A DNA stretch of 64,000 bases from Nitrospirales bacterium LBB_01 (GCA_004376055.2 CP049016.1:2294001-2358000); one strand, 5' to 3'. Shown: positions 5,538 to 39,105, numbered from the stretch's first letter. Translations and numbers: made by a program. The notes: a model not told the origin generated them from the sequence alone.

Positions 5538-5561
5538 ATAATCTATACCCTTCCATTACCA

Positions 5562-5778
5562 CAGGGCAAACGCATTTCACAGGAAATAATAATATATTGC
5601 CAATGCAGTGTAGCTTCGCTAAAAAACTGGATTCCTGCCTGCGCAGGAATGACAAAAAAAAGACATATCCTTCCTTGTCATTCCCGCCTCCGAGCGGGAA
5701 TCCAGTCCTTTTCTCTAAAAATTCTGCCTTGCAACAGAGAAGTCTTTTGCTGCTTTTTTCTCTAATGCGTTTGCCCTG
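5562..5778. mobile_element. MITE-like element, family C, 217 bp with 10-bp target duplication
   Basis: Perfect 15-bp terminal inverted repeats, CAGGGCAAACGCATT at 5562-5576 and AATGCGTTTGCCCTG at 5764-5778, enclose a non-coding segment. The ten bases TCCATTACCA flank it directly on both sides (5552-5561 and 5779-5788) and read as a target-site duplication. Inside is a copy of the family A palindrome at 5628-5707 and a degenerate left end of family A at 5596, so one element seems nested in another. No transposase is encoded. It lies just after the prfA stop codon. Confidence 0.85.
5628..5707 (+). repeat. family A palindromic core
   Basis: Double stem-loop: TGGATTCCTGC with GCAGGAAT, then TGTCATTCCCGC with GCGGGAATCCAG. 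Same layout as the copies at 2551, 13884, 34193, 53103 and 61469. Confidence 0.9.
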
Positions 5779-5903
5779 TCCATTACCAGCTATTTACAAA
5801 AATTTCCAATTATGCTATATATAATAAGCATAACTGGAAAAAAAATGAAAACTATATGAAAATCAATGACTTATTAACGCCCTTTATCCGTGGCAACACG
5901 GTA

Positions 5904-8726
5904 TTACTTGCGTTCTCCGCACAAGTTAACATAATCACAGTTTGGACAGATATTTTTGCGGTCTGATGTTGGGGCAAAATCAATATTGACATTGTCTATC
6001 TCTTTAATTATATCCGTAATTATGTGGCTTAATTTGTCATAAACCTCTGCTATGTTGTCATCAGCGGTAAAAAGTGGCGCCTCGATTTTTTCATTAATGT
6101 AGTTTCTGCCAAGCATCAAACACATTGCGTTAAGATTTTCAATGCGCTCGTTGCGGGCGTATAGATACAGATAAAACGGCAGTTGAATGCTCCCAATGTG
6201 TTTTGCCCAGCTGGTTCTGTCTTCAATCATTAATTTATCTTTCCTAATGGTATAAGCTGCCTGATTAGCCGCGGTTTTGAAATCCATGATAACTATTTTT
6301 CCATTTATACTTAGGATTAGATCAAGTCTGCCGTAAAGGTTATATCCCTCAGATGCAGCGCTAAGTTGTTCTTCTACGCCTTTAACCAATACAATATTGT
6401 TTCTGACCAGAGTTGTAAAATACCCGGAAAGAAGATCATTAAGGTGTTTTTTTACCTGAGTTTTTAATAAATGCGCTGAACCAGAGGCATCTTTGCCATA
6501 GAATTTAATGAAAGTTGTGTCAATGAGTTTATTCATCTGATGTGTACTTAACATCGTCTCTGTGAGAATCGTTCCTTTCATGCCTGTAAAAAACCTACCA
6601 AGCACATCGTGGACAAACACTCCGACATCACGGCTTTCAAGACTCCCTGACACTGTTTCTCTGGGATAGAGCAATAGCACATAACGATAATAAAACATAA
6701 GCTCACACCGGAGATATGTGTCAATTGCTGTTGCGCTTAGCTTAGTGGTTTTTCTCAGGGTCTCCACCATCTCAGGGGTTTTTGCGGCTGGTGCAACCGG
6801 TTGATTTCTTAGCGCTATTTTATATTGAATCTGCTTGATGTGACCATGCAGAGCGCCTGCTGTCTTTTGTTTTTCCCATAGGATTTTTTCAACAAATCGG
6901 CTTTTTTCTTTTTTATCATTTTCAACAAAAAATATGTGCGCCTCTTTTGCCCCTCTAAGCAGAGAGTCAAAGTAGTACAGGGAAAGCCGCTCACGGTCCT
7001 CGTACGTTGGAAGGTTCAGCATGATGCGCAGCTTGTGAGGAAGCAGGGTATCCTCCTTTTTTGCCATAGGCACAACCTCCTCGTTAGCGTCCAAAAAAAT
7101 CACGCAGTCAAACTTTATGTTTCTTGTCTCCAGAAAACCCAACACCTGAAGCTCTCTAAGCGGTGTGCCCTCAAACGGACAGTGGCACGTGGCAAGATAC
7201 TTTCTAAAGAGATTAAAATACCCCGAAAGCTCAGTAAATTCCACATCCTTTAGCAGACTCTGAGTTATTGTGTGAAGCGCTTCGGCAAATGCCTCAGCAA
7301 ATGGATAAAAAAACGGATGCCGCTTTGCCGTTGTGTTGTCATAAATGTAGTTTAAAATTGTGAGACACCGGTTTGCAAAATCGCCGATATTTTTAAAACT
7401 CATAAAGCCGCTAATCAGCGCACTGTGGATACCCCCTAAATGCCCTCTGAGAGCTGCCTCATCTATTGCCTCAAAATATTTTTCAGACTTAAGTTTATTG
7501 AGGATTTTATCAAAAATTCCGCTAAGACTTTCTATTTCGCTTAGTTTAAGAAATGTCCTTGCCCTGTTAGCCGACAGCTCCTCCTCTATTGTATGAAAGA
7601 TTATCCTTGTTAGTTCTGCGCTGCCCTTAAAAAACACATTTTTAATGTAGGGGTGAAGCGTAAACTTAATGTAGTCAGGCACATATACTCTTTCGCCCTC
7701 CATTGAAAGCACTGTTTCCATAAGACTTTGAAAAAAACCATACACAGGAGTCCGCACAAGCGGATACCCCAGCGATACATTATATGCGCTCTCCTCAAAT
7801 GACGATATTCCGTGATACAGAAGCGGAAACAGGGTGTCGGGCTGCGGCAGCACTATAACCGTGTTTTTGACATCAGGGGTTTCACTAAGAATACGGTTAA
7901 CCCCAAACACCTGTCCGTGCGTATCGGTTGAGCTTGTAAGTTTAATCTCAGGATAACTGGGTTCACTATCAGGCAAGGGAATATCGTACTTGAGCGACTT
8001 AAGAAGCATATCAATTCCCGGGCCGTCTTGAAACAAAAAACGGCTGTTACCAGCTTGTGATAATTTATTAAAAATCTCAAGTTCACTTTTTGTCAGAGCA
8101 AAAAATCCAGCTACAATAATTTTCTCAAATTTCTGTAATGCCTCATTATCTAAGCACTCACTCACCCTCCGGTATCTTGTTGAGCGGGTTGAAAGATTAA
8201 GTGTATTTAGTTTTTCATAAAACTCTTTGTAAAAAAACGAAAGCGAGTTAAGCATTTTTTTGGAGCGCTCTGGCAGCGCATCCTCTGCCATCGTGTCAAT
8301 CTGTCTTATGGCCTCAAGACTGATATTTTCAATATAAAATTCCTCTATATCTTTATAAATATCAATTCCAACGGAGAAAAAATTATCAGCCCCAAGGTAA
8401 CTGCCACCACCTATTGGGTTTACTGAGTGTCTATGGAGTTTATATAAAATTGCAAGGGCATCCAGTGTGTCGGTCTTTCTTTGGTGAAGGTTAAGAATCT
8501 CTGTGTATATGTAGTCCACAAAGGCATCCATTGAAAAAATCAGAGGAGGAATAAATGCGGCTTTCTCCTTTTCTGCAATGGCTTTCTTAAGGAAATGTCC
8601 GGGACGTTTGCCCGGAAAAACCACTATATTGGATGAGTAATCGTTACCATTAGGTATTAATTGAGAGCATACCTCATCTATGAGGTCTTCGTCAGCGGAT
8701 AAAACTAAAAAGGAGTCTTTCGTCAT
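5904..8726 (-). CDS. AddB-like PD-(D/E)XK exonuclease
   Basis: A 940-residue protein built like the AddB/RecB-type recombination nucleases. The N-terminal two thirds resemble the helicase-derived scaffold of AddB but no clear Walker A is visible (the matching region reads V-V-F-P-G-K-R-P-G). The C-terminal quarter starts with K-L-S-A-T-A-I-D-T-Y-L-R-C and has the nuclease core G-R-L-D-L-I-L with I-M-D-F-K-T-A. The last residues hold C-P-N-C-D-Y-V-N-L-C, which with the Cys of L-R-C-E-L matches the four-cysteine 4Fe-4S staple of AddB nucleases. The expected role is processing of DNA double-strand ends. No addA partner is in the window. It is downstream of fba, separated by a hairpin. Confidence 0.8.
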   Translation of the reverse strand: MTKDSFLVLSADEDLIDEVCSQLIPNGNDYSSNIVVFPGKRPGHFLKKAIAEKEKAAFIPPLIFSMDAFVDYIYTEILNLHQRKTDTLDALAILYKLHRHSVNPIGGGSYLGADNFFSVGIDIYKDIEEFYIENISLEAIRQIDTMAEDALPERSKKMLNSLSFFYKEFYEKLNTLNLSTRSTRYRRVSECLDNEALQKFEKIIVAGFFALTKSELEIFNKLSQAGNSRFLFQDGPGIDMLLKSLKYDIPLPDSEPSYPEIKLTSSTDTHGQVFGVNRILSETPDVKNTVIVLPQPDTLFPLLYHGISSFEESAYNVSLGYPLVRTPVYGFFQSLMETVLSMEGERVYVPDYIKFTLHPYIKNVFFKGSAELTRIIFHTIEEELSANRARTFLKLSEIESLSGIFDKILNKLKSEKYFEAIDEAALRGHLGGIHSALISGFMSFKNIGDFANRCLTILNYIYDNTTAKRHPFFYPFAEAFAEALHTITQSLLKDVEFTELSGYFNLFRKYLATCHCPFEGTPLRELQVLGFLETRNIKFDCVIFLDANEEVVPMAKKEDTLLPHKLRIMLNLPTYEDRERLSLYYFDSLLRGAKEAHIFFVENDKKEKSRFVEKILWEKQKTAGALHGHIKQIQYKIALRNQPVAPAAKTPEMVETLRKTTKLSATAIDTYLRCELMFYYRYVLLLYPRETVSGSLESRDVGVFVHDVLGRFFTGMKGTILTETMLSTHQMNKLIDTTFIKFYGKDASGSAHLLKTQVKKHLNDLLSGYFTTLVRNNIVLVKGVEEQLSAASEGYNLYGRLDLILSINGKIVIMDFKTAANQAAYTIRKDKLMIEDRTSWAKHIGSIQLPFYLYLYARNERIENLNAMCLMLGRNYINEKIEAPLFTADDNIAEVYDKLSHIITDIIKEIDNVNIDFAPTSDRKNICPNCDYVNLCGERK

Positions 8727-8788
8727 TTTATTGTGCGATGGCTAACACTATCGAACTATACACGATGCCTTAATAGACGCTGAGCCTT

Positions 8789-8817
8789 GAGGGGGAAAGG
8801 TTTTACCTTTCTCCCTC
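8789..8817 (-). terminator. strong hairpin after fba
   Basis: A 13-bp stem (8789-8801 pairing with 8805-8817, one G-T pair) and a 3-nt loop, 30 nt beyond the fba stop. No T-run follows on the minus strand, so it may be an attenuator or RNA-stabilising hairpin rather than a full intrinsic terminator. Confidence 0.5.
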
Positions 8818-8847
8818 TGAGCCACAGTATCATTACATTATCTGAAA

Positions 8848-9825
8848 CTAAGCCTTACCGGCGCTTCCAAGTACTTTTTCGTTTTTGTACTTAATCATCT
8901 TTATTAGTTCGTCTCTGGCAGGGCCTAGGTACTTTCTTGGATCAAACTCTTTAGGATTTTCAGCAAACACTTTTCTTATTACCGCGGTAACTGCCAATCT
9001 GCCGTCGCTGTCTATGTTTATCTTACAAACGTTTGAGCTTGCAGCTCTTCTTAACTGCTCCTCTGAGACGCCGACTGCGTTGTCCATCTTTCCACCGTAC
9101 TTATTTATCATATCGACGTATTCAGGAATAACCGAGGATGCGCCATGAAGGACTATCGGAAAACCGGGAATCCTCTTTTGTACCTCCTCCAATATATCAA
9201 AACGAAGCGGAGGCGGCTCCTCACCGGGTTTCACTTTAAACTTGAACGCTCCGTGCGATGTCCCAATTGATATGGCAAGGCTGTCCACTCCGGTCTTCTT
9301 TACAAAATCCTCAACCTCCTCAGGCTTTGTATAGTGGCTGACCTCTGAGGATACATCATCTTCAATGCCTGCTAACACCCCAAGCTCTCCCTCTACCGTC
9401 ACATTGTTTGCATGAGCATACTCCACAACTTTTTTGGTAAGCGCTACGTTTTCATCATAAGGATGATGTGAGCCGTCTATCATCACTGAGGAAAAACCTG
9501 AATCCACACATGACTTACACAGTTCAAACGTGTCTCCGTGGTCAAGGTGAAGGGCTATAGGAATATTTCCGCCCATGTCTTTCATCATCTGCACTGCTCC
9601 CATTGCCAGATAGCGCAAAAGGGTCTGATTGGCATACTTCCTTGCCCCGCTTGATACCTGCACTATTACCGGTGATTTAGACTCCACACATCCAATCACT
9701 ATGGCCTGAAGCTGCTCAAGATTATTGAAATTATAAGCCGGAATCGCATAGTGCCCTTCCATGGCTTTTTTAAACATCTCTTTGGTATTAACAAGACCCA
9801 GCTCGGTGTACTTTACTGCTCCCAT
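8848..9825 (-). CDS. fba: class II fructose-bisphosphate aldolase
   Basis: Interconverts fructose 1,6-bisphosphate with dihydroxyacetone phosphate and glyceraldehyde 3-phosphate in glycolysis/gluconeogenesis; a zinc enzyme. The 325-residue product has the class II signature A-L-H-L-D-H-G-D-T (catalytic Asp and zinc His) at about residue 90, the V-M-I-D-G-S-H strand, the E-G-E-L-G zinc-ligand region, and the phosphate-binding V-L-H-G-A-S-S segment followed later by K-I-N-I-D-S-D. GGAGGG precedes the ATG. A possible promoter, TTGACA-18-TACCAT, lies upstream. The H-G-A-S-S form and overall length fit the ketose-bisphosphate aldolase branch used for FBP. Confidence 0.93.
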   Translation of the reverse strand: MGAVKYTELGLVNTKEMFKKAMEGHYAIPAYNFNNLEQLQAIVIGCVESKSPVIVQVSSGARKYANQTLLRYLAMGAVQMMKDMGGNIPIALHLDHGDTFELCKSCVDSGFSSVMIDGSHHPYDENVALTKKVVEYAHANNVTVEGELGVLAGIEDDVSSEVSHYTKPEEVEDFVKKTGVDSLAISIGTSHGAFKFKVKPGEEPPPLRFDILEEVQKRIPGFPIVLHGASSVIPEYVDMINKYGGKMDNAVGVSEEQLRRAASSNVCKINIDSDGRLAVTAVIRKVFAENPKEFDPRKYLGPARDELIKMIKYKNEKVLGSAGKA

Positions 9826-9885
9826 GTTTCCCTCCGTTATTGTGTTTTAGCAATCTCAAAAAAGATTGACTCAGTTTCCATGATA

Positions 9886-9915
9886 ATGGTAATTGAGGAG
9901 CAGTCTTTTTGTCAA
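9886..9915 (-). promoter_or_regulatory. possible sigma70 promoter of fba
   Basis: On the minus strand TTGACA (9910-9915) is followed after 18 nt by TACCAT (9886-9891), about 60 nt before the fba start. The -35 matches consensus fully; the -10 matches four of six positions. Confidence 0.4.
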
Positions 9916-10272
9916 GCTTCATTTGTACGCTGGGTTTTTCCAGCAGAATTCGCAGCAACAATCATTCCCCCCCCAAAAAAAATCACCAGACTTTTTTAAG
10001 TGTTACTTATGTCACATATTTAAAAAAAAGAAAAATGCTAAATTGGCTTAACTGCTTAACCACAACACGTGGTGTACATAATAATTACAAGAATTTGGTG
10101 TTGGGGTTAATCGGAGGAAGTGACCTGATAACAGATGTCTTTTGTGTTGCATCTGTTTATGATGTTCCGTTTTAGTGGTCGCGAAGGCTGGCCTTTGGTC
10201 GGTGGAATTTATAATAAGGAGGAGAGTGCCATAAACCAGGGGGTAGTATTCGGTGGTTTAGTGGTGCTCGTA
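9916..10272. other. intergenic region upstream of the cytochrome genes
   Basis: No convincing gene is seen. The region holds an eight-C/eight-A homopolymer junction (9967-9982), a CRP/FNR-like palindrome at 10001-10016, and a strong purine-rich ribosome-binding site AAGGAGGAG near 10216-10224 that is not followed by a usual in-frame start codon. Confidence 0.6.
10001..10016. promoter_or_regulatory. CRP/FNR-family-like operator
   Basis: TGTTA-N6-TCACA differs by one base from the CRP consensus TGTGA-N6-TCACA. It lies about 270 nt upstream of the diheme cytochrome start. Such sites often control anaerobic respiratory genes; which regulator binds here is unknown. Confidence 0.35.
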
Positions 10273-11022
10273 ATGAAAGGTATGACTTTAGAACACAGAG
10301 AAATGCTCTACAAGAAGTTTTTTTATGTCTTTGTTCTTGCTGTCCTTACCTTGGTTGCTGTACCGTCATCGTACGCTGCGGAATCAGATGGTAAAGACGT
10401 TTATAAAAGGTACTGTTCACCTTGCCACGGTGAAAAAGGAGAAGGTAACGGCCCTGTTGCAAAGGCGCTGTTTCCAAAACCCAGAGATTTCACTCAGGGG
10501 TCTTATAAAATTAAATCAACTTCAGGCACACTGCCCCTGGACAGCGATATCCTTCGCACAATTAAAAACGGTATGCCAGGTACCAGCATGACCCCGTGGG
10601 ATGTGCTCTCCGATGCCCAACGCAATTCGCTACTGCCTGTACTAAAAGGATTTTCAAAGTATTTTAGTCAAGAGACGCCCGATGCTCCTGCCAAAGTGAC
10701 TGGTCATTTCGGATCTTCAGCAAGTGCAATAGCTGATGGGAAAAAGCTCTACATGGATAAGGGTTGCTGGGAATGCCACGGCGCTACCGGTAAAGGTGAC
10801 GGCTTTAAGGCTGACAGACTGAAAGACGACTGGGGTAATCCGATTTCTGCCTACGACTTCACACAGGGTGATAAGTTCAAAGGCGGCAGTTCTGATGAGG
10901 ATGTATTTCTTAGATTTACCACAGGGATGTCAGGCACCCCAATGCCTTCTTATGAAGATTCACTCACGGCTGAACAGAGGTGGAACCTGGTCCACTATGT
11001 GAAGTCATTGATGAAAAAATGA
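10273..11022 (+). CDS. diheme c-type cytochrome
   Basis: A secreted electron-transfer protein with two heme c sites, C-S-P-C-H and C-W-E-C-H, each at the start of a cytochrome-c-like domain that ends with a methionine-containing loop (G-M-P-G-T-S-M and G-M-S-G-T-P-M). The N-terminus has a signal peptide: L-Y-K-K then a hydrophobic core ending P-S-S-Y-A-A-E. The start is uncertain: ATG codons at 10273, 10282 and 10303 all precede the signal peptide, and the best ribosome-binding site (near 10220) is too far upstream for any of them. The octaheme cytochrome gene follows after 91 nt on the same strand, so the two are probably co-transcribed and this protein may carry its electrons. Confidence 0.9.
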   Translation: MKGMTLEHREMLYKKFFYVFVLAVLTLVAVPSSYAAESDGKDVYKRYCSPCHGEKGEGNGPVAKALFPKPRDFTQGSYKIKSTSGTLPLDSDILRTIKNGMPGTSMTPWDVLSDAQRNSLLPVLKGFSKYFSQETPDAPAKVTGHFGSSASAIADGKKLYMDKGCWECHGATGKGDGFKADRLKDDWGNPISAYDFTQGDKFKGGSSDEDVFLRFTTGMSGTPMPSYEDSLTAEQRWNLVHYVKSLMKK

Positions 11023-11113
11023 ACAACAGGACACTACAGCGTGTATTGTCTTTCTGCTGCCGGCACATAGTCTGGAGGCAGAAACCAGAGACTAATATAA
11101 GGAGATGGGAAAC

Positions 11114-12760
11114 ATGAAATATATAGTCAACAGAAAGTTGGCCTTAGGCGTTATCTTTTTGATGTTCGCGATGTCAATATCTGTGCCGGTCTTTGCTAAG
11201 GATAGCGTAGAGGAAAAGAAAGTCTTTAAGAATTTCTATGAGGGAACCTCTGACGCTTACAGAGATCAGTACGAAAAACATGTAGGGCTTTCAAAGGGCT
11301 CTGGCCCCTTAAGCGATGCTTTTAAACCAATGAAGCTTTTTATGTATTGGAGCCCTGAAAGGCACTACGTACCCTCTGAAAAACTTGACCACTCTATCTT
11401 TATCGAACAAAACAGGAGTGATCTGTGCGTCAAGTGTCATGAGGGAATAAATTTGGGAACAGTAGAGGATTGGAGACAATCGGCTCACTTTGATCCCAGA
11501 AAAACACCCTATTTAGCAGCTAAAACCGACGAAATAGAGAAAACCATTAACAGAAAAATTACCAAAGTCGAGTGTATTGACTGTCACGCAGACAAGACCA
11601 AGAAACAGATTCGGATGCCTTCTGCAAATGTTTGCGGCGAGTGTCACGGAGATCAGGTGCTTGAGCTTATGAGCGAACGTGAGCAGGGCCGCCCTAACCA
11701 CGTACAAGGATGGGAGTCAAACGTTGTAGTGCCGTGGTATGTGGAGGCCGGAGTAAAGGGTCAGTTACCAGGCATGATTGGCTGCGACCTCTGTCATGCT
11801 TCAGCAGAGAAATGCGACGTCTGCCACACAAGACATAAGTTTTCAGCGGCAGAGGCGAGGCAGCCCGAGTCTTGTGAAAGCTGCCACATGGGTCCTGACC
11901 ATCCAGATTCAGAAACATACAGTGATTCAAAACATGGAAAGCTTTATGAGATGAGCAAAGAACATATGGATTTCAGCAAACCTCTTGCTCGTGTTGAAGT
12001 TGGCAAGGATTACCGCACCCCAACATGTCAGCTTTGCCACATGTATCAGGGCAGCGGCAGATATTCGCATAACTTTGTTTCTAAGGGCATCTGGAGAATG
12101 GGTACAGTACCGCCAACCCAGATTCAATACAAGTCTTCGCTGAAAGACTACCCGTATGGTATAAAGATAATTCCACCAAAGGTTGACATTCATTCGGCAG
12201 CTAACCTGGCAAAAAGAGACAAGTGGATTGAGCTATGTTCAAAGTGCCACGGTCCCAGATTCTCTGAATTATATCTTGAAGCGATGGATGACTTTATGAT
12301 TACTGCGTTTGAGAGGACTGATGAGGCTCAGCTGATACTGGATAATCTAGTTAAGGATAATATGCTCTATCCGTCAGCTGCAAAGAGAGGCATCTACCCT
12401 CTGGGCGACAAAATAGCCGGAGCATTAGGGCCTAAACTGCTTGGTGACGGTGTTTACAATGCCTTCAAATCACTAAACGGTAAGGTGCCTGTAATAGGCC
12501 CAATCCTTGGCGTTTATGGCCTATTTTTCTCAGGGGAAAATAATCCCTCCGTCATAGAGATAGCCTATGCCAAGATGTGGTTCTTCTATAAACTGCAAGG
12601 ATACAAAGGCGTAGCTCACACCCAGCAGGATTATATGTGGTGGTGGGGTATGGCTCCTATGCTTGAGCAGTTGAATGTTATAAAGTCTGAGGATGCAAGA
12701 CTGCGCAGAGAAGCAGCTATGGATCCAATGCGTCACAAAAGCACAAAAACAGGTAAATAA
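11114..12760 (+). CDS. HAO-like octaheme c-type cytochrome
   Basis: A 548-residue exported multiheme protein. Eight C-x-x-C-H heme sites are visible in order: C-V-K-C-H, C-I-D-C-H, C-G-E-C-H, C-D-L-C-H, C-D-V-C-H, C-E-S-C-H, C-Q-L-C-H and C-S-K-C-H. The C-D-V-C-H-T-R-H-K-F-S segment, the C-x-x-C-H-M-G-P-D-H-P motif and the long helical C-terminal domain without hemes are typical of the hydroxylamine oxidoreductase (HAO) family of octaheme cytochromes. The signal peptide ends V-F-A-K-D. ATG 11114 is chosen because AAGGAG is 10 nt upstream; the in-frame ATG at 11105 overlaps that site. Family members oxidise hydroxylamine or hydrazine, or reduce nitrite/hydroxylamine. Which direction applies depends on the catalytic cross-link tyrosine, which cannot be assigned by eye. 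Confidence 0.9.
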   Translation: MKYIVNRKLALGVIFLMFAMSISVPVFAKDSVEEKKVFKNFYEGTSDAYRDQYEKHVGLSKGSGPLSDAFKPMKLFMYWSPERHYVPSEKLDHSIFIEQNRSDLCVKCHEGINLGTVEDWRQSAHFDPRKTPYLAAKTDEIEKTINRKITKVECIDCHADKTKKQIRMPSANVCGECHGDQVLELMSEREQGRPNHVQGWESNVVVPWYVEAGVKGQLPGMIGCDLCHASAEKCDVCHTRHKFSAAEARQPESCESCHMGPDHPDSETYSDSKHGKLYEMSKEHMDFSKPLARVEVGKDYRTPTCQLCHMYQGSGRYSHNFVSKGIWRMGTVPPTQIQYKSSLKDYPYGIKIIPPKVDIHSAANLAKRDKWIELCSKCHGPRFSELYLEAMDDFMITAFERTDEAQLILDNLVKDNMLYPSAAKRGIYPLGDKIAGALGPKLLGDGVYNAFKSLNGKVPVIGPILGVYGLFFSGENNPSVIEIAYAKMWFFYKLQGYKGVAHTQQDYMWWWGMAPMLEQLNVIKSEDARLRREAAMDPMRHKSTKTGK

Positions 12761-12768
12761 ATAGAATA

Positions 12769-12798
12769 AGGGAAAGGGCTCTGTAGAGCCCTTTCCCT
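12769..12798. terminator. bidirectional terminator hairpin
   Basis: A perfect 13-bp stem AGGGAAAGGGCTC / GAGCCCTTTCCCT with a 4-nt loop, lying between two convergent genes 9 nt after the octaheme cytochrome stop. The right arm contains the first bases of the stop codon of the potassium-channel gene on the other strand. Confidence 0.8.
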
Positions 12799-13804
12799 AA
12801 TTTCCTGCAAGTTTTTCTACCTCGTTTAATTTGTTGACCTCTCCGAGGGCTATAAGAATGTCACCCGCTTTGATTATGGTCTTATGGGTTGGATTAAAAC
12901 GCATTTCGCCATCTGAGCGCTTTATGGCTACTATAATAATACCAAATTTACGTCCTATCTCTGTCTCTGCCACCGTTTGGTCAACAAACACAGAGGACTC
13001 CTTAACATATATCTCCTCCATTTGAAGCGCAATGTTACCGCTTAGCGTGGCAAACTCAAGGAAATCTACTACCGCCGGTTTTAGTATCGTTTGAGCTATC
13101 TTTATCCCGCCGATATTGTATGGGGCTACTACCCTGTCAGCTCCAGCCCTCATAAGTTTCAACTCCGTGCTCTCTTCAACTGCCCTTGCAACTATCTTAA
13201 GAGACGGATTCAGTACCCGAGCCGATAGCACCACAAAGAGATTATTGGCGTCAGTTGAAAGCACCGACACAATTCCCTTAGCCCGTTCAATACCTGCCAT
13301 CTTTAAAGTCTCATCATGTGTTGCATCGCCGGTTATAAACAAATAGTCCTCTTCTTCAAGTTTTACCATCTCTTGATCTATTACAACAAAGGGCACTCCA
13401 GATGATTTCAACTCCTTGCATATTATCCGGCCCATCCTGCCAAAACCGCAGATTATATAGTGTTCTTTTATCTCTTTTATTTTCTTTTCCAACTTCCTCC
13501 TCCCGAGAATTTTCTGAAACTCTCCTTCAAATAACGCCCTCAAGCCCACATTGACATTGTAGGCTAAAATTCCAACCCCAGAAAAAATCAAAAAAATTGT
13601 GAATGCCCTACCCTTGTCGCTTAGTGCATGTACCTCCTGAAAGCCTATCGTTGCGAGTGTTATGACTACCATGTAAAACGAATCAAACGCATTCCATCCC
13701 TCTACAGCCATGTAGCCAAATGTACCAGTAGCAAGTATCGCAACCAACAGTGCTGCCGATATTATAAGCTGTTTTCTTAACTCTCCTACGGGAGCGTGTA
13801 TCAC
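12797..13804 (-). CDS. TrkA-type potassium channel protein
   Basis: A 335-residue protein with two transmembrane helices (about residues 12-32 and 65-88) around a pore loop, then an RCK_N/TrkA-N domain beginning H-Y-I-I-C-G-F-G-R-M-G (Rossmann NAD-binding glycine motif) and an RCK_C domain at the end. This is the MthK-like architecture for gated K+ conduction in the inner membrane. The pore filter reads T-I-G-F-Q-E where most K+ channels have T-V-G-Y-G. The start is GTG at 13804 with GGAG 8 nt upstream; an out-of-frame ATG overlaps it. It is single-gene and convergent with the cytochrome pair. Confidence 0.85.
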   Translation of the reverse strand: MIHAPVGELRKQLIISAALLVAILATGTFGYMAVEGWNAFDSFYMVVITLATIGFQEVHALSDKGRAFTIFLIFSGVGILAYNVNVGLRALFEGEFQKILGRRKLEKKIKEIKEHYIICGFGRMGRIICKELKSSGVPFVVIDQEMVKLEEEDYLFITGDATHDETLKMAGIERAKGIVSVLSTDANNLFVVLSARVLNPSLKIVARAVEESTELKLMRAGADRVVAPYNIGGIKIAQTILKPAVVDFLEFATLSGNIALQMEEIYVKESSVFVDQTVAETEIGRKFGIIIVAIKRSDGEMRFNPTHKTIIKAGDILIALGEVNKLNEVEKLAGN

Positions 13805-13883
13805 ATTATGATCTCCATTTTATATTATGCTGCGTTCAGAAATAAACAAAAACACACTTGGGTTTAACTTTGATAATGAAAAC

Positions 13884-13963
13884 TGGATTCCTGCTTTCGC
13901 AGGAATGACAGAAAGGACGACACCATCCTTTGTCATTCCCGCCTACGAGCGGGAATCCAGTCT
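13884..13963 (+). repeat. family A palindromic core
   Basis: Double stem-loop with the same halves as the other copies (TGGATTCCTGC... and ...GCGGGAATCCAGTC). It lies between the K+ channel gene and the end of rpoC. The long terminal repeats of family A are not recognisable in its flanks. Confidence 0.9.
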
Positions 13964-14019
13964 TTTTTCATATCCATTAAATTCACTTTTTAAAAGCAAA
14001 TTTAATCACATCATGTCAA

Positions 14020-17000
14020 TCATGTTTCCAGCACAGGTTCTTCGTGCTCATGCACTTGCTGTTGCTCATGTTCTGCTTCTTGTTCTTTCTTTACATCTGA
14101 TTCGCGTTTTACATAAGTGTTTCTGTATCTATCCATACCGGTGCCGCACGGGATTATTTTACCCATGATAACGTTTTCCTTTAGCCCGCGCAACTCATCA
14201 ACGCCGCCGGCAAGTGCTGCATCTGTAAGCACTCGTGTGGTTTCCTGAAACGATGCCGCAGATACCCAGCTGTAGGTGGTCAGTGACGCCTTTGTTATGC
14301 CAAGAAGAAGTGGCTTACCTATTGCCGGTCTCTTACCCTCAGACATGAACACAGCATTCAATTCCTGAAACTCCATCCTGTCCACCTGATCGCCTATCAT
14401 AAGCTCAGTGTCACCGGGATCCTCTATACGCACCTTTCTCATCATCTGTCTGATTATTATCTCAATATGCTTGTCGTTAATTGAAACACCCTGCAGGCGG
14501 TAAACCTTCTGAACCTCATCCACAAGATAGCGCTGAAGCTCGGTTGGCCCAAGTATGTCCAAAATATCGTGTGGATTTACAGCCCCATCCATAAGAGCCT
14601 CTCCGGCTTTTACCCAGTCACCCTCATGAACTGTCACATGTTTACCCTTTGGGATTGTGTATTCTTTAACAACATCGCCGCCGCGCACCTTTACCATTCG
14701 TGAGCCTTTCTGAGTTGACACAAACTCAACTACACCGTCTATTTCTGAAACTAGTGTTGGCTCCTTCGGTTTACGTGCTTCAAATAACTCAGCTACTCGT
14801 GGGAGACCACCGGTTATGTCTTTTGTCTTAACAGTCTCTCTTGGAATTTTTGCTAAAACATCGCCGGGAGCAACAAGGTCGTTTTTCTCTACCAGAATGT
14901 TTGACCCCACAGGGAGCATATACCGAGCTGGTACTCCATTAGGAAGTTTAAGAGTTGCCTTCCCATGCTCGTCCTTTATGGAAATTCTTGGTCTTAGGTC
15001 TAAATGTGTAGGGAAATCCACTATGAGTCTATGAGAAAGACCAGTTATTTCGTCAACCTGTTCTTTAACTGTCACCCCCTCTTCAACATCTCCCCATGCA
15101 ACACGCCCGCCAACCTCTGTTAAAATCGAGGTGGAGTACGGATCCCATTCGGCAATCTTTTGCCCAATTTGCACCTTGTCGCCGTCTTTTACTAAAAGCT
15201 TGGCGGCATACACAATGTTGTGCTTTTCACGCTCACGACCACTCTCATCCACAACCGCTATGAACGCATTACGGTTCATAACCACATGCAGACCATCACG
15301 ATTTATGACTGAGTTAACGTCCATAAATTGGATAGTACCGGAGTGTTTTACACTAAGAACAGCCTGCTCAATTATCTTTGTAGCAGCGCCTCCAATGTGG
15401 AAGGTTCTCATGGTAAGCTGTGTTCCAGGCTCTCCGATTGACTGAGCCGCTATGATTCCCACAGCCTCAGCCATTTGAATCCGCTCGTTTCTTGCCAAAT
15501 CTCTGCCATAGCAGTTCATACATATTCCAAAGCGAGTTTGACAAGTAAGCACAGAGCGAATCTTTACCCTGTCTATACCAGCCTCAACAATACGAATGAC
15601 CATCTCCTCATCTATGTCGCCGTTTTTTGGCAGAATAATTTCCTTAGTTACAGGGTCGCGGATGTCCTCAGCCGAGATTCGCCCAAGGAGTCTTTCCTCA
15701 AGAGGTTGTATTATCTCGCCTCCTTCGATAAGAGCCGTTATCATTATCCCATCGTCAGTGCCACAGTCCTCCTCGGTGATTATAACGTCCTGTGCCACAT
15801 CGACCAGTCTTCTTGTAAGATAACCTGAGTTAGCGGTTTTAAGAGCCGTATCGGCTAGCCCCTTACGAGCACCGTGGGTTGAGATAAAGTACTGAAGCGG
15901 AGAGAGTCCTTCACGGAAATTAGCCGTAATCGGGGTTTCTATGATTTCCCCCGATGGCTTTGCCATAAGACCTCTCATACCAGCAAGCTGGCGTATCTGT
16001 GCCGCTGAGCCTCTTGCACCAGAGTCAGCCATCATAAAGACGCTGTTAAAGGCGCGGCTTTTTTCGATTTCCTCCGGTGTGAATGTTTTACCCTCCTCGG
16101 CTCCCAACTCAGCCATCATGACCTCGGCCACTTTCTCCGTCACATTTGCCCATATATCTATGACCTTGTTGTACCGCTCGCCCTGAGTTATAAGCCCGTC
16201 AGAGTACTGCTTATAAACCTCCATAACTTCCTTCTCAGCGCCCTTTAGTATCTCAGGCTTTTGCGACGGCACGTGCATGTCCGAGATACAGATGGAAATT
16301 CCCGATTTTGTAGCATACTCAAAGCCAAGTCTTTTCAGCTCATCCAAAAACAACACGGTTTTTCTCTTCCCTGCATACTTATGAGCATAGTCTATTACCT
16401 TTTGCACTTCTTTTTTCGTAAGCACCCGGTTAATCTCCTGAAACGGCACGCCCTCAGGAACTATCTCATAAAAAAGCACTCTACCCACTGTTGTTGATAC
16501 CTTCTCGCGGTCTATATAAACTGATATCTTTGCATGTTCTACTATAACTCCGTTGTCATAAGCAATACGTACCTCATCGGGAGAAGAAAATATCTTGCCC
16601 TCACCCTTTGCGCCGAGTTTTTCCTTAGTCAGGTAGTAGATGCCCAAAACCATGTCCTGAGTAGGAAGCACAATTGGCTTACCGCTAGCAGGTGAGAGCA
16701 GATTGTTTATAGACATCATAAGCACCCTTGCCTCCACCTGTGCCTCTATGGAAAGCGGCACGTGCACTGCCATCTGATCGCCGTCAAAGTCTGCATTATA
16801 TGACGTACAGACAAGAGGATGGAGTTTTATAGCCTTTCCCTCTATTAATACAGGGTCAAAGGCCTGTATGCCAAGCCTGTGAAGGGTCGGCGCCCTGTTT
16901 AACAGAACCGGATGCTCTTTGATTACCTCTTCAAGGGCATCCCAAACCTCCGGACGTTCCATCTCAACGAATTTCTTAGCCTGCTTTATGGTTGTAACGT

Positions 17001-27160: not shown

Positions 27161-27189
27161 ATTATATAGTTTTTTATATTAGTTGTCAA
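27161..27189 (-). promoter_or_regulatory. consensus sigma70 promoter of the tRNA-tuf-rpo block
   Basis: On the minus strand TTGACA (27184-27189), a 17-nt spacer, then TATAAT (27161-27166). Both hexamers and the spacing are perfect matches to consensus, 60 nt before tRNA-Tyr. Confidence 0.85.
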
Positions 27190-27351: not shown

Positions 27352-28935
27352 CTAATTTTTTAAAAATTCTTGCTCTTTGCTATTGTCCGTTTTCCATTTA
27401 ATATTTTTAGAGTCCAGGAAATCCTGGGCGGGTTTAAGTCCAAGCTTGGCGGCCTCAATATAATCTGTGACTGCCTCCTTTTGAAACCCAAGCATACCAA
27501 ATGCCACACCACGGTTAAGGTAGGCCTTGGCGTTTTGAGGCTCATATTTCAAAACCTTTGTGAAATCCTCTATTGCCTTGTCATAGCTGCCAGCTTTAAC
27601 AAACTCCATTGCCCTTTGATAATAAGATGCAGGATTAACAGGGTCTGCCTCTATTGACTTCGTTAGTTTTTCAACCCTACCCTTAGATAAAAATTGTTCT
27701 GCAACGGTTAAGATATCATCAAATGTAAAATTTTTAACAGGCCCTGTCTTAGTGTTGTCGTAAAGAAACAGTACAAAGGAAAACACCAAAAAGAAAAGTG
27801 CTGTAGTCTTAAACTTCGGGAGTTTAAACGGTTTAGCGGTCTGGATGGTTTGCAATTGTGGGGGTTTTTCATTTATAAGCGAATATCCGCAGGTGTTACA
27901 GAACATTCCCATTGCGTTTTGTGCGCTTGTGCACTTTGGACAAAGCACCATATCGGCTGGAGTTTTTGGAGTATTGCCGGTACTTACAGAACTTACTGTT
28001 TCCGGCTGTAGGTGTATCTCCTCTGGCAGAAGGTCGGCGCTGACAGAGCCGTCAGCATCCAGAAGCGCTAAAAAATCCGGAGATTTATCAAGCGGCATCA
28101 GACAGGTCTTAGCAAGCAGAGCGGCCTGTGTTTTAAGCACATCAGTGGAAAAGAGCTCCCGAAACAGAGGCGATTGGTTAGTATTAGAAAAATCCTTCTC
28201 AGAAAAAATCAGATTATCACCGTTATAGTATTTCTCCCACAGAGCTGGTTTAGAAATTAACGCCGTCAGTGCGTTGTGGATAACCATGACGCTGAAGTTA
28301 TCCATAGTCTCTCCGTAGTTAAAGCGGGTTCTTTTAGGGTGTTGGTAGTTAGGGTGCCCCACCTCGTTACTTTGCGTAAGTGTAACTGAAGCAACATACA
28401 TGCCGTCGTAATCTATAAGTTTAAGCCCATTTGGGGTCACTATGATGTTAGCGTGTTGGAGGTCTCCGTGAGCAATCTTATCTGTTTGCAACTGCTTGCA
28501 CATAGAAACAAAAGAATCCCTAAGAGCGGTAATTTTTTCAGTGTCACCAGCCTTTACGCACTCATCTATATATTTGTCAAACGATATGCCGGTAATCCAG
28601 TCCATCAAAAGAAGAGGGTAGTTTTTCCCGTTAACTCTGATTCCGTTTTCCTGATACTTGAAATCTATAAAATACGGAGAGTTCCGAGTGTGTAAACATT
28701 CCGATATGCGTTCGTAGCGGAATTTTATATCCGGATAGTAGTTGAAAAAACACTTTACGGCTTGCTCCTTATCCGGCAGTATGACTTTATATACGGAGGA
28801 GAAATTGCCGCATCTGACAAAGGGAAGTCCAAGTTTATTTAATTCTATAACGCCTGTCTTTAGCTCAGGGTCTGAGAAACACAGTTCAGGGTTTTGAACC
28901 GCCTTGTTGTATTGGTCAGGGAGCGGGTATTTCAT
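27352..28935 (-). CDS. protein kinase-like protein with zinc ribbon, TM helix and TPRs
   Basis: The N-terminal ~300 residues are a kinase-like domain: a glycine/serine loop (C-G-N-F-S-S-V-Y-K-V), catalytic Lys in Q-A-V-K-C-F, H-G-D-L-Q-H-A-N-I-I-V as catalytic loop and I-D-Y-D-G-M in place of DFG. A zinc ribbon C-P-K-C...C-N-T-C follows, then one transmembrane helix (T-T-A-L-F-F-L-V-F-S-F-V-L-F-L) and a C-terminal domain with two to three TPR-like repeats. It is the last gene after VWA and PP2C genes on the same strand, which suggests it is the kinase arm of a phosphorylation switch. ATG 28935 is taken as the native start; the open frame continues 12 codons upstream (ATG 28971), but those codons come from a repeat element. 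No Shine-Dalgarno is visible for either start. Confidence 0.8.
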   Translation of the reverse strand: MKYPLPDQYNKAVQNPELCFSDPELKTGVIELNKLGLPFVRCGNFSSVYKVILPDKEQAVKCFFNYYPDIKFRYERISECLHTRNSPYFIDFKYQENGIRVNGKNYPLLLMDWITGISFDKYIDECVKAGDTEKITALRDSFVSMCKQLQTDKIAHGDLQHANIIVTPNGLKLIDYDGMYVASVTLTQSNEVGHPNYQHPKRTRFNYGETMDNFSVMVIHNALTALISKPALWEKYYNGDNLIFSEKDFSNTNQSPLFRELFSTDVLKTQAALLAKTCLMPLDKSPDFLALLDADGSVSADLLPEEIHLQPETVSSVSTGNTPKTPADMVLCPKCTSAQNAMGMFCNTCGYSLINEKPPQLQTIQTAKPFKLPKFKTTALFFLVFSFVLFLYDNTKTGPVKNFTFDDILTVAEQFLSKGRVEKLTKSIEADPVNPASYYQRAMEFVKAGSYDKAIEDFTKVLKYEPQNAKAYLNRGVAFGMLGFQKEAVTDYIEAAKLGLKPAQDFLDSKNIKWKTDNSKEQEFLKN

Positions 28936-29057
28936 ACCAAGTAGCATTCTATCGCCTAACTTCGTTGGCATGCGTCAAAAGCTCCTCAACGTACTAAAAG
29001 TACGCCTGCGTCGCTTTCTCCTTGCCGCCTTGTTATACTTCTGACTGCTACTTGGTA
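28935..29057. mobile_element. MITE-like element, family B, about 122 bp
   Basis: Terminal inverted repeats TACCAAGTAGCA (28935-28946) and TGCTACTTGGTA (29046-29057) enclose a non-coding segment with an internal palindrome CGTACT-AAA-AGTACG. The same ends recur at 48889-49113 and, diverged, at 53066-53246. It fills the gap between the PP2C and kinase genes and touches the kinase start codon. No clear target duplication is seen. Confidence 0.7.
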
Positions 29058-29066
29058 CCATACCGG

Positions 29067-29879
29067 CTAAAATCTCATCGTTATGCCGGTTACATCATCA
29101 TTTTTTATTTCTTTACCGGCTCTTAGTGTATCAATAAGGGAGACAAAGGTCTCCATGCTGTCAATACTTTGAAGTGTGTCCCATGGTTTATCACCATTCA
29201 AAGAGGATTTTAAAAACCACAGCGCCATAGCATCTGTCATAAGGTACAGTTTGTCGCCTTTTTGAATGATGCCTGAGTCATATGCAATGCGCTCCTCATC
29301 TAACGGCTCAATGCTTGAGATAAGCTGCGGCGTGTTGTTAAAGTCGTCCACATTTTCAATGGGAAAGGCTTTAAATAGCTCATTATCTCGTACAATAAAA
29401 AAACACGAGTCTCCAACTCCGACAGTCTCCCATTTGATTTTGACAACTCGTTTGAGTTTATCTTTCAGAGATTTGGCAGGGAGCAGGGTTATGCGCAGTC
29501 CTGTAAAGGTGGCATGAGAGCCTGCGGATATTTTTTGCTCGGCGTACCACGGGAGTTCCCTGTCTTTTATAATATCTAACCATCGGGATTGAGCTTGTGT
29601 GACGGTATTAAGCAGCGCCTGTTTTAAATTATCATCAGGTATCGGCTGATTTACAAAATTATCGACAAGCAGCGCTGCCAGCTCTTTTGAAAATGGGGAT
29701 TCCGTAGCGCCGTCAGACAAACAAAAACACAGTGACTCTTTACTATAACCGCCGGCATCCTCGTAGTCCTCAAGAGAGTTGCCGTCTTTTGGAGTAGAAT
29801 AGACGTGAAAATCCTCAATGAACTTATCGAAGAAAACAACATTCCTCTTTTTGATTGAGGGCAAAGACAAGAACTTCAT
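29067..29879 (-). CDS. PP2C-type protein phosphatase-like protein
   Basis: A 270-residue protein with features of the PP2C fold: E-D-Y-E-D-A-G-G-Y near the N-terminus, S-L-C-F-C-L-S-D-G-A-T-E-S (metal-binding D-G), A-G-S-H-A-T-F-T-G, V-G-D-S-C-F-F (metal-binding G-D-S), L-M-T-D-A-M-A and N-D-D-V-T-G at the end. The usual early D-x-x-G is not obvious, so some ligands differ from the classic set. Expected activity is metal-dependent Ser/Thr phosphatase. It starts 10 nt after the VWA gene and precedes the kinase gene, forming the middle of a three-gene run. Confidence 0.8.
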   Translation of the reverse strand: MKFLSLPSIKKRNVVFFDKFIEDFHVYSTPKDGNSLEDYEDAGGYSKESLCFCLSDGATESPFSKELAALLVDNFVNQPIPDDNLKQALLNTVTQAQSRWLDIIKDRELPWYAEQKISAGSHATFTGLRITLLPAKSLKDKLKRVVKIKWETVGVGDSCFFIVRDNELFKAFPIENVDDFNNTPQLISSIEPLDEERIAYDSGIIQKGDKLYLMTDAMALWFLKSSLNGDKPWDTLQSIDSMETFVSLIDTLRAGKEIKNDDVTGITMRF

Positions 29880-29889
29880 AAGAGTCGTC

Positions 29890-30726
29890 CTATCGTAACA
29901 TTCCGACTCTAGTTCCTATATCAATAAAGCTAATCAGGGAGATAAGATCGGCATTGAACCCAAACCCTCTGCTCTGCTGATTTACGACATAGCCATCGTT
30001 AAGAGCAGCAGTTATGAATGTATCCGGCAGGAGACTTGATATTTCAAACAAAAGAGCTGCGTACTCATCAGAAATTGTGGGGGCTTTATCGGGATAGATA
30101 ATCGGCACGGAGTGCTGAGTTGAGATGTGAATATTAAAAAGCAGCACATTGCCGTCATTAGTATTAAGGCGCATAAGGTCACGGGCATAGGGAATCGGGT
30201 TACCGTCTGTGGCGTCGCCGTCAGTGATATTTATAATAATCGGAGGATAGCTGTTAAGGTTCAGGGCAATCCATTTTTCTACAATTGAGCGTGCCGTCTC
30301 AAAAGCCTTGCACATGGGGGTGCCGTTACGAGCAAGGGGTTCAATCCAGACTGGAAATTTTACGCTCTTTTGAACAGTCTCGCCATCGGCTGAGGATATT
30401 TGTTGAAGACGCTCTTCAATTCTAAGAGGATTATTGCCGATTTCCTCAATCTTTACAAGCTCACGCCCGGCAAGCGTCCCCATAAAAGCAGAGGAGACAT
30501 CAGGGTTGCCATAGCCAATGACGCCAACCTCAAAATAATTTCTGATGCCATCGTCCTTAGAGCATTTTATCACAAGATTGGAAAGAAGCCTGTTAACGGC
30601 ATCAGCAACTCCGTGACTTTTTAACAGCGATGGATTCCCGCCGAATGGATCACCCATTGAACCCGACTGATCTATCAAAAACAGGAAACACCCCGGATTA
30701 CTGCGGCTTATTTCAACATTATACAT
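29890..30726 (-). CDS. VWA-domain protein (TerY-like)
   Basis: A 278-residue protein that is mostly one von Willebrand A domain. The MIDAS metal site is intact: D-Q-S-G-S-M-G near the N-terminus, the Thr in R-N-G-T-P-M and the Asp in N-I-T-D-G-D-A. There is no signal peptide or membrane segment, so it should be cytoplasmic like TerY. ATG 30726 is chosen because GAGGGG lies about 9 nt upstream; an in-frame ATG at 30789 has no ribosome-binding site. VWA, PP2C and kinase genes in a row match the TerY-P triad described for tellurium/stress and defence-linked loci. No other ter gene is nearby, so the stimulus is unknown. Confidence 0.85.
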   Translation of the reverse strand: MYNVEISRSNPGCFLFLIDQSGSMGDPFGGNPSLLKSHGVADAVNRLLSNLVIKCSKDDGIRNYFEVGVIGYGNPDVSSAFMGTLAGRELVKIEEIGNNPLRIEERLQQISSADGETVQKSVKFPVWIEPLARNGTPMCKAFETARSIVEKWIALNLNSYPPIIINITDGDATDGNPIPYARDLMRLNTNDGNVLLFNIHISTQHSVPIIYPDKAPTISDEYAALLFEISSLLPDTFITAALNDGYVVNQQSRGFGFNADLISLISFIDIGTRVGMLR

Positions 30727-36567: not shown

Positions 36568-39105
36568 CTAAGCGGATGGTGGCTGAGCGGCAGCTTTTGC
36601 CCGCTGCTTTGCTATGATAATTTTCTTACATTGATTGAGGTCTTCAATAAAGTCCTTACCAGTTTGATAGCGCCCCTCAGTTTTCTTTATGAGCATCTTA
36701 CTTATTATCTCTGCAATACAGGAGGGAATCCTTCGGTCTAATTCATTAACCGGAATAGGCTCAGAGGTTGTAATGTTGTACATCAGAGTGGCAATGCTAT
36801 CGCCCTTAAATGGTTTGTCACCGGACAAAAGCTCATAAAACACAACACCAAGGGAAAACAGGTCAGACCTACCGTCCACTTTCCGTCCGGCTATCTGCTC
36901 CGGTGACATATAACTCGGTGTTCCCATAATCATACCGGTTAGGGTCTTTGATTTTTCCATAACACGGGCTATCCCAAAATCAGTTACACGAATCTCCTTA
37001 TTATGAAGCAGCATTATGTTGGCTGGTTTTATATCCCTGTGCACTACACCGTTAGCGTGTGCGTAGTCAAGGGCATCGGCAACACCCGTCACTATTTTTA
37101 ATACCTCACCAAAGGGCAGTCTTGCCGATTGCTGACAATACCTTGTAAGGTCGCCTCCTGACAGAAGCTCCATCGCCATGAACGACTCATCGTTGTCATC
37201 TCCTACATCGTAGATTTTAACAATATTGGGATGAGACAGTTTGCCGGCAGCCTCAGCTTCTTTTAAAAATCGTTCTTTTACATCCGCTATCTGATCCCAA
37301 TCTATTTCGTCGTATCTGAGGGTCTTTATTGCCACCTCCCGGTTAATCACAGGGTCTTTGCCGTGATAGACGACACCCATAGCTCCGCGGCCAAGCTCTC
37401 TTATCAGTTGATACCGCCCAAGTGTAGGTTTTTTATCAGCACTTTCCATTATCACAGTGGCATCCATACGTGTTTTGTTTAGTATAACCGTATCATTAGG
37501 AGCCTTTAACCGCTTTATTCTTTCCTCTAAATCCCTATATGCTCCGGCGCTTAAAATATGCTCATACACTTCTACCGCTTTGTCAAACATACGTTTTTTC
37601 TCAAAATCAAGTCCAATATTATACAGCTGTTCCTTTACTGCAATATCCGCTGCAGGGCAGTCTTTGAGTTTCTCAAATGCCATATCCAACTGCCCCTGAC
37701 CATGAAATGAAAGCCCAAGCATCTTGTTGGTTTCAACACTTGCCTCTGTCTGTACGTCCTCTACGGGTTTAGTCAGTAGAAAATGCTTTGACGCCATAAC
37801 TGCATACCCAACGACAAGCAGCGCTGCCGGAGCTGATACCTTTAGCCAATACCCATAGTGTGACAACAAAAATATGCCTGCTCCGATTGTTGCTATAAGT
37901 GCAAGTGCCGTTATTGCACTGCTCATGGCGATTTTCATTTGAGGAATGACAAAGGAGACAAAAAGACCAAAAAGCACTATTAATAATATCTCAGGATATT
38001 TAAACCATCCGGGTCTTACCATGTAATTGTTGTTTAAAATGTTTTCAACCATATTTGCCGTCACTTCAACGGCAGGAATTTTAGTGTTAAGAGGGGTTAA
38101 AACCGGCGGGTTTATGCTGGTGGCAACAGTGCCTATTATTACGATTTTGTCTTTAAACTGTGCCGCTGATAATTTATTGCCGGTCATAAGATCGCTAAAT
38201 GAGTAATATGGAAAACTCTTATGTTTTCCGCTATAACTGATGAATACCTCGGCGTCAATGGGAATCTTAATCTCCCTGATTTGCAGATTTTTGCCGATTT
38301 TTGCATCCTTTATATCAAGCCCAAGATATTTTAACGCAAGCTGAAGAGCGAGGGATGGAAACAGACGTTCTTTGTAGTAAATGAGCATGGGTTCTTTTCT
38401 GACAACTCCGTCGATTGACGTTAAATGGTTAAGGTGTCCAATGGCGGATGCCCTGGAGGCGAACTCCTCGATAGGCGCTGTCACATCATAGGCAGTACGA
38501 TAACTTTCATTAAATTGTGCCTTTAAGGAGTTGTTTTCAAGATAGAGCGGAATTTTTCCTTTTTGTACGGCAGCAGCCTTATTGAGGGAAAACATAACCG
38601 GCAAAACCACATTTTTAGCATCCGTTATGGCTTTAGCAAGAGCGGCATCGCTGTCCAGTGACAGTTCCGCCTCAAGAAGGGAATTGAGGATGTCCATTAC
38701 CTTTTTATCCTCACGGGCAGCGGGGTCGGCCTCTACTTTTTGTATGAGTTTCCTGATGACAGCGAGGCCGCTGTTTGTGTCAGCTTCGGAAAATATCCTA
38801 TTAAGCCCGATTACTTTCACTCCGTAGCCGTTGAGTTTGTTTATGGCATCAGCAATTTGAGTGCCAGGCCACGGCCAATGCCCTAGTTTTTCAATGCTCT
38901 CTTTATCAATGCCAACAATTACCACCCTGGCAGGTGTGTTTAACTTCTTTGGTCTTAGCGCACTGCTAAGATTATAGAGTTTGAAATCTGCTGATTTTAA
39001 AGGGCCCCACCCAGCCAAATACAACGCAATAAAAACAATTGTCATCAAAACACCGGTTGCCCACCCCGGCACTTTTGACAGAAACACCTTGCACAGCCTG
39101 CTCAT
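36568..39105 (-). CDS. CHASE2-domain Ser/Thr protein kinase
   Basis: An 845-residue transmembrane kinase. A TM helix (about residues 15-33) leads to a periplasmic CHASE2 sensor domain (R-V-V-I-V-G-I-D-K-E-S-I-E-K-L-G-H-W-P-W-P), followed by three TM helices (about 365-440), a TPR-like linker, and a complete eukaryotic-type kinase domain from about residue 565. Catalytic features are intact: G-R-G-A-M-G-V-V-Y loop, Lys in V-A-I-K-T-L, H-R-D-I-K-P-A-N, D-F-G and S-P-E. It is the same overall design as cyanobacterial and deltaproteobacterial CHASE2 kinases. It stands alone; the stimulus is unknown. It converges with the glycosyltransferase operon with a 5-nt gap. Confidence 0.92.
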   Translation of the reverse strand: MSRLCKVFLSKVPGWATGVLMTIVFIALYLAGWGPLKSADFKLYNLSSALRPKKLNTPARVVIVGIDKESIEKLGHWPWPGTQIADAINKLNGYGVKVIGLNRIFSEADTNSGLAVIRKLIQKVEADPAAREDKKVMDILNSLLEAELSLDSDAALAKAITDAKNVVLPVMFSLNKAAAVQKGKIPLYLENNSLKAQFNESYRTAYDVTAPIEEFASRASAIGHLNHLTSIDGVVRKEPMLIYYKERLFPSLALQLALKYLGLDIKDAKIGKNLQIREIKIPIDAEVFISYSGKHKSFPYYSFSDLMTGNKLSAAQFKDKIVIIGTVATSINPPVLTPLNTKIPAVEVTANMVENILNNNYMVRPGWFKYPEILLIVLFGLFVSFVIPQMKIAMSSAITALALIATIGAGIFLLSHYGYWLKVSAPAALLVVGYAVMASKHFLLTKPVEDVQTEASVETNKMLGLSFHGQGQLDMAFEKLKDCPAADIAVKEQLYNIGLDFEKKRMFDKAVEVYEHILSAGAYRDLEERIKRLKAPNDTVILNKTRMDATVIMESADKKPTLGRYQLIRELGRGAMGVVYHGKDPVINREVAIKTLRYDEIDWDQIADVKERFLKEAEAAGKLSHPNIVKIYDVGDDNDESFMAMELLSGGDLTRYCQQSARLPFGEVLKIVTGVADALDYAHANGVVHRDIKPANIMLLHNKEIRVTDFGIARVMEKSKTLTGMIMGTPSYMSPEQIAGRKVDGRSDLFSLGVVFYELLSGDKPFKGDSIATLMYNITTSEPIPVNELDRRIPSCIAEIISKMLIKKTEGRYQTGKDFIEDLNQCKKIIIAKQRAKAAAQPPSA

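Follow-up and report, generated by a model that had tools for sequence, protein, structure and literature searches.

Three adjoining genes on the minus strand of the window (the whole stretch of 64,000 nucleotides analysed, from Nitrospirales bacterium LBB_01) encode, in this order (30726 -> 27352), a TerY-type VWA protein, a PP2C-like phosphatase and a protein kinase, and were identified as a triad of the known TerY-P kind; what is new is the version of the kinase tail, which is predicted to be membrane-anchored with a repeat domain outside. We put at about even the chance that the triad works as a stand-alone phospho-switch of TerY-P type tethered to the inner membrane. Three same-strand genes resembling TerY-P had been described here in an earlier note; their positions were confirmed with a correction of the kinase start only, and, since all three genes matched the PADLOC TerY-P models, the relation is more than a resemblance. 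Coordinates are given in Table 1.

Table 1. Features of the triad locus (positions counted from the first nucleotide of the window)
Feature	Position	Strand	Basis and remarks
TerY-type VWA protein, 278 aa	29890..30726	-	PADLOC TerY, AlphaFold, dN/dS; without visible signal or TM; MIDAS intact
PP2C-like phosphatase, 270 aa	29067..29879	-	PADLOC PP2C, Pfam PP2C_2, conserved metal-binding Asp
MITE-like repeat, 121 bp, 11-bp terminal inverted repeats	28936..29056	-	Between PP2C and kinase
Kinase, 527 aa: kinase domain, zinc ribbon, TM helix, TPR	27352..28935	-	PADLOC STK_OB, Pfam, AlphaFold model
Protein kinase domain (aa 1-290), motifs VK, HGDLQHxN, DYDG	28066..28935	-	Conservation, model, PDB matches
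Zinc ribbon CPKC-x10-CNTC (aa 332-349)	27889..27942	-	All four Cys present in every complete Nitrospirota orthologue
Predicted TM helix (aa 375-393)	27757..27813	-	Hydropathy, model; Lys-rich stretch precedes
TPR region (aa 405-510), probably on the periplasmic side	27406..27723	-	Pfam TPR_1, consensus-TPR PDB matches, helices in model

The TerY protein (start at 30726) was matched by the PADLOC TerY model over the whole profile (E=3.8e-91) and weakly by Pfam VWA_2, was modelled by AlphaFold with a pLDDT of 88, and gave VWA folds as top PDB matches; its MIDAS residues, which the earlier note had read as intact, were near-invariant in 60 relatives (DxSxS as D19-Q-S-G-S23, T136 and D169). The second protein, likewise recognized before as PP2C-like, was matched by the PADLOC PP2C model (E=1e-31) and above cut-off by Pfam PP2C_2, with the motifs SDG, GDS, TDA and NDD, and so the metal-binding aspartates, kept in 47-50 of 50 relatives and YED present in the sequence. 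For the kinase, the PADLOC STK_OB model was matched with E=1.5e-83, at profile positions 1-295 of 562 only, and Pfam Pkinase at its cut-off. Residues H156, D158, N163, D175 and D177 were invariant in all 51 family kinases; the beta-3 lysine (position 61 of the kinase at locus L013) was replaced by arginine in 38 of the 51 and is retained in the Nitrospirota kinases. The AlphaFold model had a pLDDT >90 across the kinase domain, and its top PDB matches were overwhelmingly protein kinases, PknB among them. Assignment to a non-protein kinase family (APH, RIO, ABC1 or Bud32) was considered and rejected, as these matches were weaker than that to Pkinase; a grouping with such kinases had been named beforehand as a possible objection, and protein kinases proved to be the best resemblance. 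Against a congener, dN/dS was 0.022 for TerY, 0.117 for PP2C and 0.123 for the kinase, while ribosomal protein L1 gave 0.021 and the nearby hisH, folK and glycosyltransferase genes 0.07-0.16; TerY is thus as constrained as ribosomal protein L1, and the triad is under purifying selection, which together with orthologous triads in related genomes excludes chance.

The kinase reading frame of 539 aa begins within an inserted repeat; because relatives begin at MKYPLP, the start was set at 28935 (527 aa). Behind the catalytic domain, a zinc ribbon (Cys332/335/346/349), a lone helix (375-393 in the AlphaFold model) and helical repeats (405-510) follow one another, in keeping with the zinc ribbon, TM helix and TPRs of the earlier description. 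Hydropathy of the predicted TM helix is modest in this kinase (1.65) and 1.66-2.03 in orthologues; four lysines stand directly before it, and from this Lys-rich stretch we infer an N-in/C-out topology. The repeats were matched by Pfam TPR_1 (E=5e-9) and by consensus TPR structures in the PDB; sister-genus kinases have only a short, eroded version of this region. A relation to MamA (NCBIfam, 4e-7) was rejected, being a TPR similarity only and far below the NCBIfam cut-off. Among the family loci compared, no kinase outside this Nitrospirota clade combined a zinc ribbon, a TM helix and TPRs. Of the extra C-terminal domains named in the earlier note, the zinc ribbon is already a described feature of TerY-P (PMC11090510). 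Membrane anchoring alone is not exceptional either, since a TM helix was predicted in 32 of 50 family kinase tails (11.7 expected from shuffles) and Escherichia coli YegI is a membrane protein.

Homologous triads were collected from about 60 loci in many phyla. With the TerY profile, 54 loci were found in GTDB genomes, which represent many bacterial phyla and include one archaeon, and two plasmids in addition; full-length TerY matches on plasmids numbered two only, both cyanobacterial, and one plasmid-derived row was left out of the structure input. A phage or prophage origin was rejected, with no homologue in the phage collection or in viral contigs (IMG/VR). The order TerY-PP2C-kinase is kept nearly everywhere, with few exceptions such as the archaeal locus L069 and the inverted kinase of L021, and the kinase tail is exchanged: OB, 2TM with coiled-coil/HhH-like, TPR, WD40, WG, FGE-sulfatase, pentapeptide and short tails were found (WD40, WG, FGE-sulfatase, pentapeptide and TPR assigned by Pfam, OB by STK_OB, HhH-like and coiled-coil by eye), and the kinase tree requires at least 15 tail changes. 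Some of these swapped tails may already have been described in the founding Ter paper or by Gao et al. The OB kinases form one clade (support 98/94), and the Nitrospirota kinases form their own (100/99) outside it, a possible sister grouping of the two having a support of 61/78. Control OB-type kinases were matched by STK_OB at positions 1-559 (ends 551-559; 720-832 bits), whereas the match ended near position 300 in the present kinase and in others with non-OB tails; as only the kinase half of the model is matched, the triad is of TerY-P type but lacks the OB fold present in the systems tested against phage. A single origin of the TPR tail with Obscuribacterales was tried: the best tree separates the two, and one clade was not rejected (p-AU 0.064). 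PADLOC matches occurred near both OB and non-OB loci (neighbour scan, output aggregated). Unrelated contexts of homologues had been set beforehand as a possible refutation of the earlier proposal; contexts do vary from one genome to another, in accordance with a stand-alone unit.

TerY-P has been described as a VWA protein, a PP2C and a kinase with a zinc ribbon, tied to restriction systems, with kinase-OB forms acting alone against phage (PMC11090510); that paper cites Gao et al. 2020 for tests of the stand-alone form as an anti-phage system. TerY-P shields Pseudomonas aeruginosa PAO1 from Autographiviridae, and most cells survive (PMC10889362); a Helicobacter pylori island carries the triad (PMC4978471), and E. 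coli YegI, a membrane kinase, is dephosphorylated by the PP2C PphC (PMC13232886). The present triad shares with the PADLOC system (TerY, PP2C, STK_OB) three homologous proteins, gene order and stand-alone occurrence, but its kinase carries a zinc ribbon, a TM helix and TPRs where that system has an OB fold, belongs to a separate clade and has no defence genes beside it. CoCoNuT-associated TerY-P, compared by its description (PMC11090510), likewise unites VWA, PP2C and a kinase fused to a C-terminal zinc ribbon, whereas here no McrBC/CoCoNuT or terD genes were seen and a TM helix and TPRs are added. The Obscuribacterales triad (L021) is alike in core, TM and TPR tail, but its kinase is without a zinc ribbon and is placed elsewhere in the best tree. 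E. coli YegL-PphC(YegK)-YegI also brings together a VWA protein, a PP2C and a membrane-bound kinase on which the phosphatase acts; YegI, however, ends in an HhH-like domain rather than TPRs, and in K-12 yegJ lies between kinase and phosphatase. Against the family profiles, YegL gave a weak VWA match (8.8e-7), YegI a marginal kinase match (0.0095) and PphC no PP2C match, so that this set is perhaps only analogous or very distant.

The triad is flanked by housekeeping genes, the tRNA-tuf-nusG-rpl-rpoB cluster on one side, separated by 250 bp, and hisH and folK on the other. Within the 250-bp gap ahead of the tRNA-tuf cluster, a sigma-70 consensus promoter was noted at 27161-27189 (-) (12/12, TTGACA-17-TATAAT). 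Eight neighbours of the triad were scanned with PADLOC: no defence gene was matched among them except for a generic kinase match, which is a CHASE2-like kinase, and no match to McrBC/CoCoNuT genes was obtained. No match to terD (PF02342) was found in five related genomes, terD is absent from the whole of the own genome, and the single TerC copy of the own genome lies 0.77 Mb from the triad; a Ter (tellurite) stress system was ruled out, as no TerD-family gene is linked. The earlier observation that no terC, terD or phage-defence effector lies nearby thus holds. Rfam gave no match in the triad locus. Situated at 36568-39105 (-), 6 kb from the triad, the CHASE2-like kinase is a further enzyme of the Ser/Thr type that seems to carry TM helices and, at its N-terminus, a CHASE2-like sensor.

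Within the phylum, TerY was detected in 5 of 295 genomes, all of one family. The triad occupies the same housekeeping position in G000 and G062 (in G062 at the same tRNA-tuf site), and in G096 it lies near lexA-like and dinB-like genes. In the sister genus (G132, G148 and MYbin6, with loci L010, L011 and L017), a gene 18-22 bp upstream of TerY encodes a protein with a signal-like N-terminus, a VWA domain, a TM helix and a long coiled coil, and in L010, L011 and apparently L018 the gene after the kinase encodes a multi-TM protein with TPRs. An operon headed by such an envelope VWA-TM-coiled-coil gene supports envelope-linked signalling. Homologues of this gene were found in all eight other family genomes searched, family members without detected TerY being among the carriers; the window's own genome has one too, 82 kb from the triad and inside a group of coiled-coil genes. 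Because of this distance and of the occurrence without TerY, the link to the triad is established in the sister genus only. The region L083 (G000:C1:2400001-2416000, especially 4343-15999) holds about 10 same-strand genes, mostly for long coiled-coil proteins, the VWA-TM-coiled-coil homologue included.

As a membrane-tethered switch, the triad would comprise a cytoplasmic kinase whose zinc ribbon and single TM helix connect it to a most likely periplasmic TPR domain, which most likely binds an envelope protein; binding would alter dimerisation or activity of the kinase, which would phosphorylate itself and a partner, and the PP2C protein would remove the phosphates and reset the switch. TerY may serve as a metal-dependent (MIDAS) VWA adaptor holding kinase, phosphatase and substrate together. 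Both the TM/TPR tail and the operon of the sister genus speak for an input from the envelope. The earlier proposal of a stand-alone phospho-switch sensing envelope or phage stress is accordingly kept as to its TerY-P-like, stand-alone character, and its envelope part gains from the sister-genus operon; phage stress found no support here.

A system acting against phage like the OB-fold TerY-P, with the membrane-tethered TPR tail replacing the OB fold, is suggested by homology of the three genes to the set that protects P. aeruginosa PAO1, by the patchy distribution (5 of 295 genomes) and by defence genes near some other family loci. We nevertheless regard it as somewhat unlikely, as the OB-fold half of STK_OB is absent and the kinase stands outside the OB clade (98/94), the scan of eight neighbours yielded no defence gene, no homologue occurred in the phages or viral contigs searched, and G000 and G062 share the same housekeeping position; a phage role is not indicated at this locus. 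The same patchiness, unlike what is expected of a core housekeeping system, speaks against a set that regulates an internal process, rather than an envelope or phage response, in the manner of YegL-PphC-YegI. That explanation draws on the three gene kinds lying side by side in E. coli (yegL-pphC-yegI), on the weak YegL and marginal YegI profile matches and on the dephosphorylation of membrane-bound YegI by PphC (PMC13232886), but PphC itself is without a match to the family PP2C profile, and we consider it unlikely. For the family at large, we raise as a tentative proposal, possible rather than probable, that TerY-P is in the first place a widespread plug-in phospho-switch rather than a phage defence, in which a fixed core (adaptor, phosphatase and kinase) takes its input from an exchanged kinase tail; the Nitrospirota form would then read the envelope with the VWA-TM-coiled-coil protein as receptor.

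The PP2C-kinase junction carries the 121-bp repeat in the own genome only. Its terminal inverted repeats are ACCAAGTAGCA/TGCTACTTGGT, and GGTATG flanks it on either side; it folds as a strong hairpin (z=-6.4) and sits at the kinase start, where it supplies the false N-terminal extension of the kinase reading frame. At least 30 copies were counted in the own genome, and 40 and 45 among the matches listed in two congeners; no copy was found in the sister genus. PP2C and kinase are spaced by 4-9 bp in congeners and overlap by 4 bp in the sister genus, and the MITE may uncouple translation of the kinase or alter its expression in this strain. That the locus is decaying here, the insertion having separated kinase from phosphatase and unbalanced the switch, would fit a hairpin-forming repeat lying between the two genes in this genome only, and the overlap of these genes in the sister genus; with all three reading frames intact and dN/dS low, we hold such decay to be very improbable.

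Stand-alone TerY-P has been catalogued as phage defence on the basis of the OB-fold type. Since here and at many other loci the kinase model is matched over its kinase half alone, automated annotation may be giving the TerY-P defence label to signalling switches whose tails are quite different. The swapped tails offer a direct route to tail function, as the same core with OB, TPR, WD40, WG or HhH-like tails should give different inputs, and a first test of mechanism could start from the candidate receptor encoded in the sister-genus operon. In four of four sister-genus relatives, the conserved PP2C N-terminus with its YEDA metal motif is in frame but without an ATG, GTG or TTG start (L010 10358-10466, L011 9586-9742, L017 5343-5511, L018 760-868). 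Two codons are common to all four loci, an ATA that overlaps the stop codon of TerY and an ATT farther downstream, and PP2C may be translated there from a non-standard start or by frameshift from TerY.
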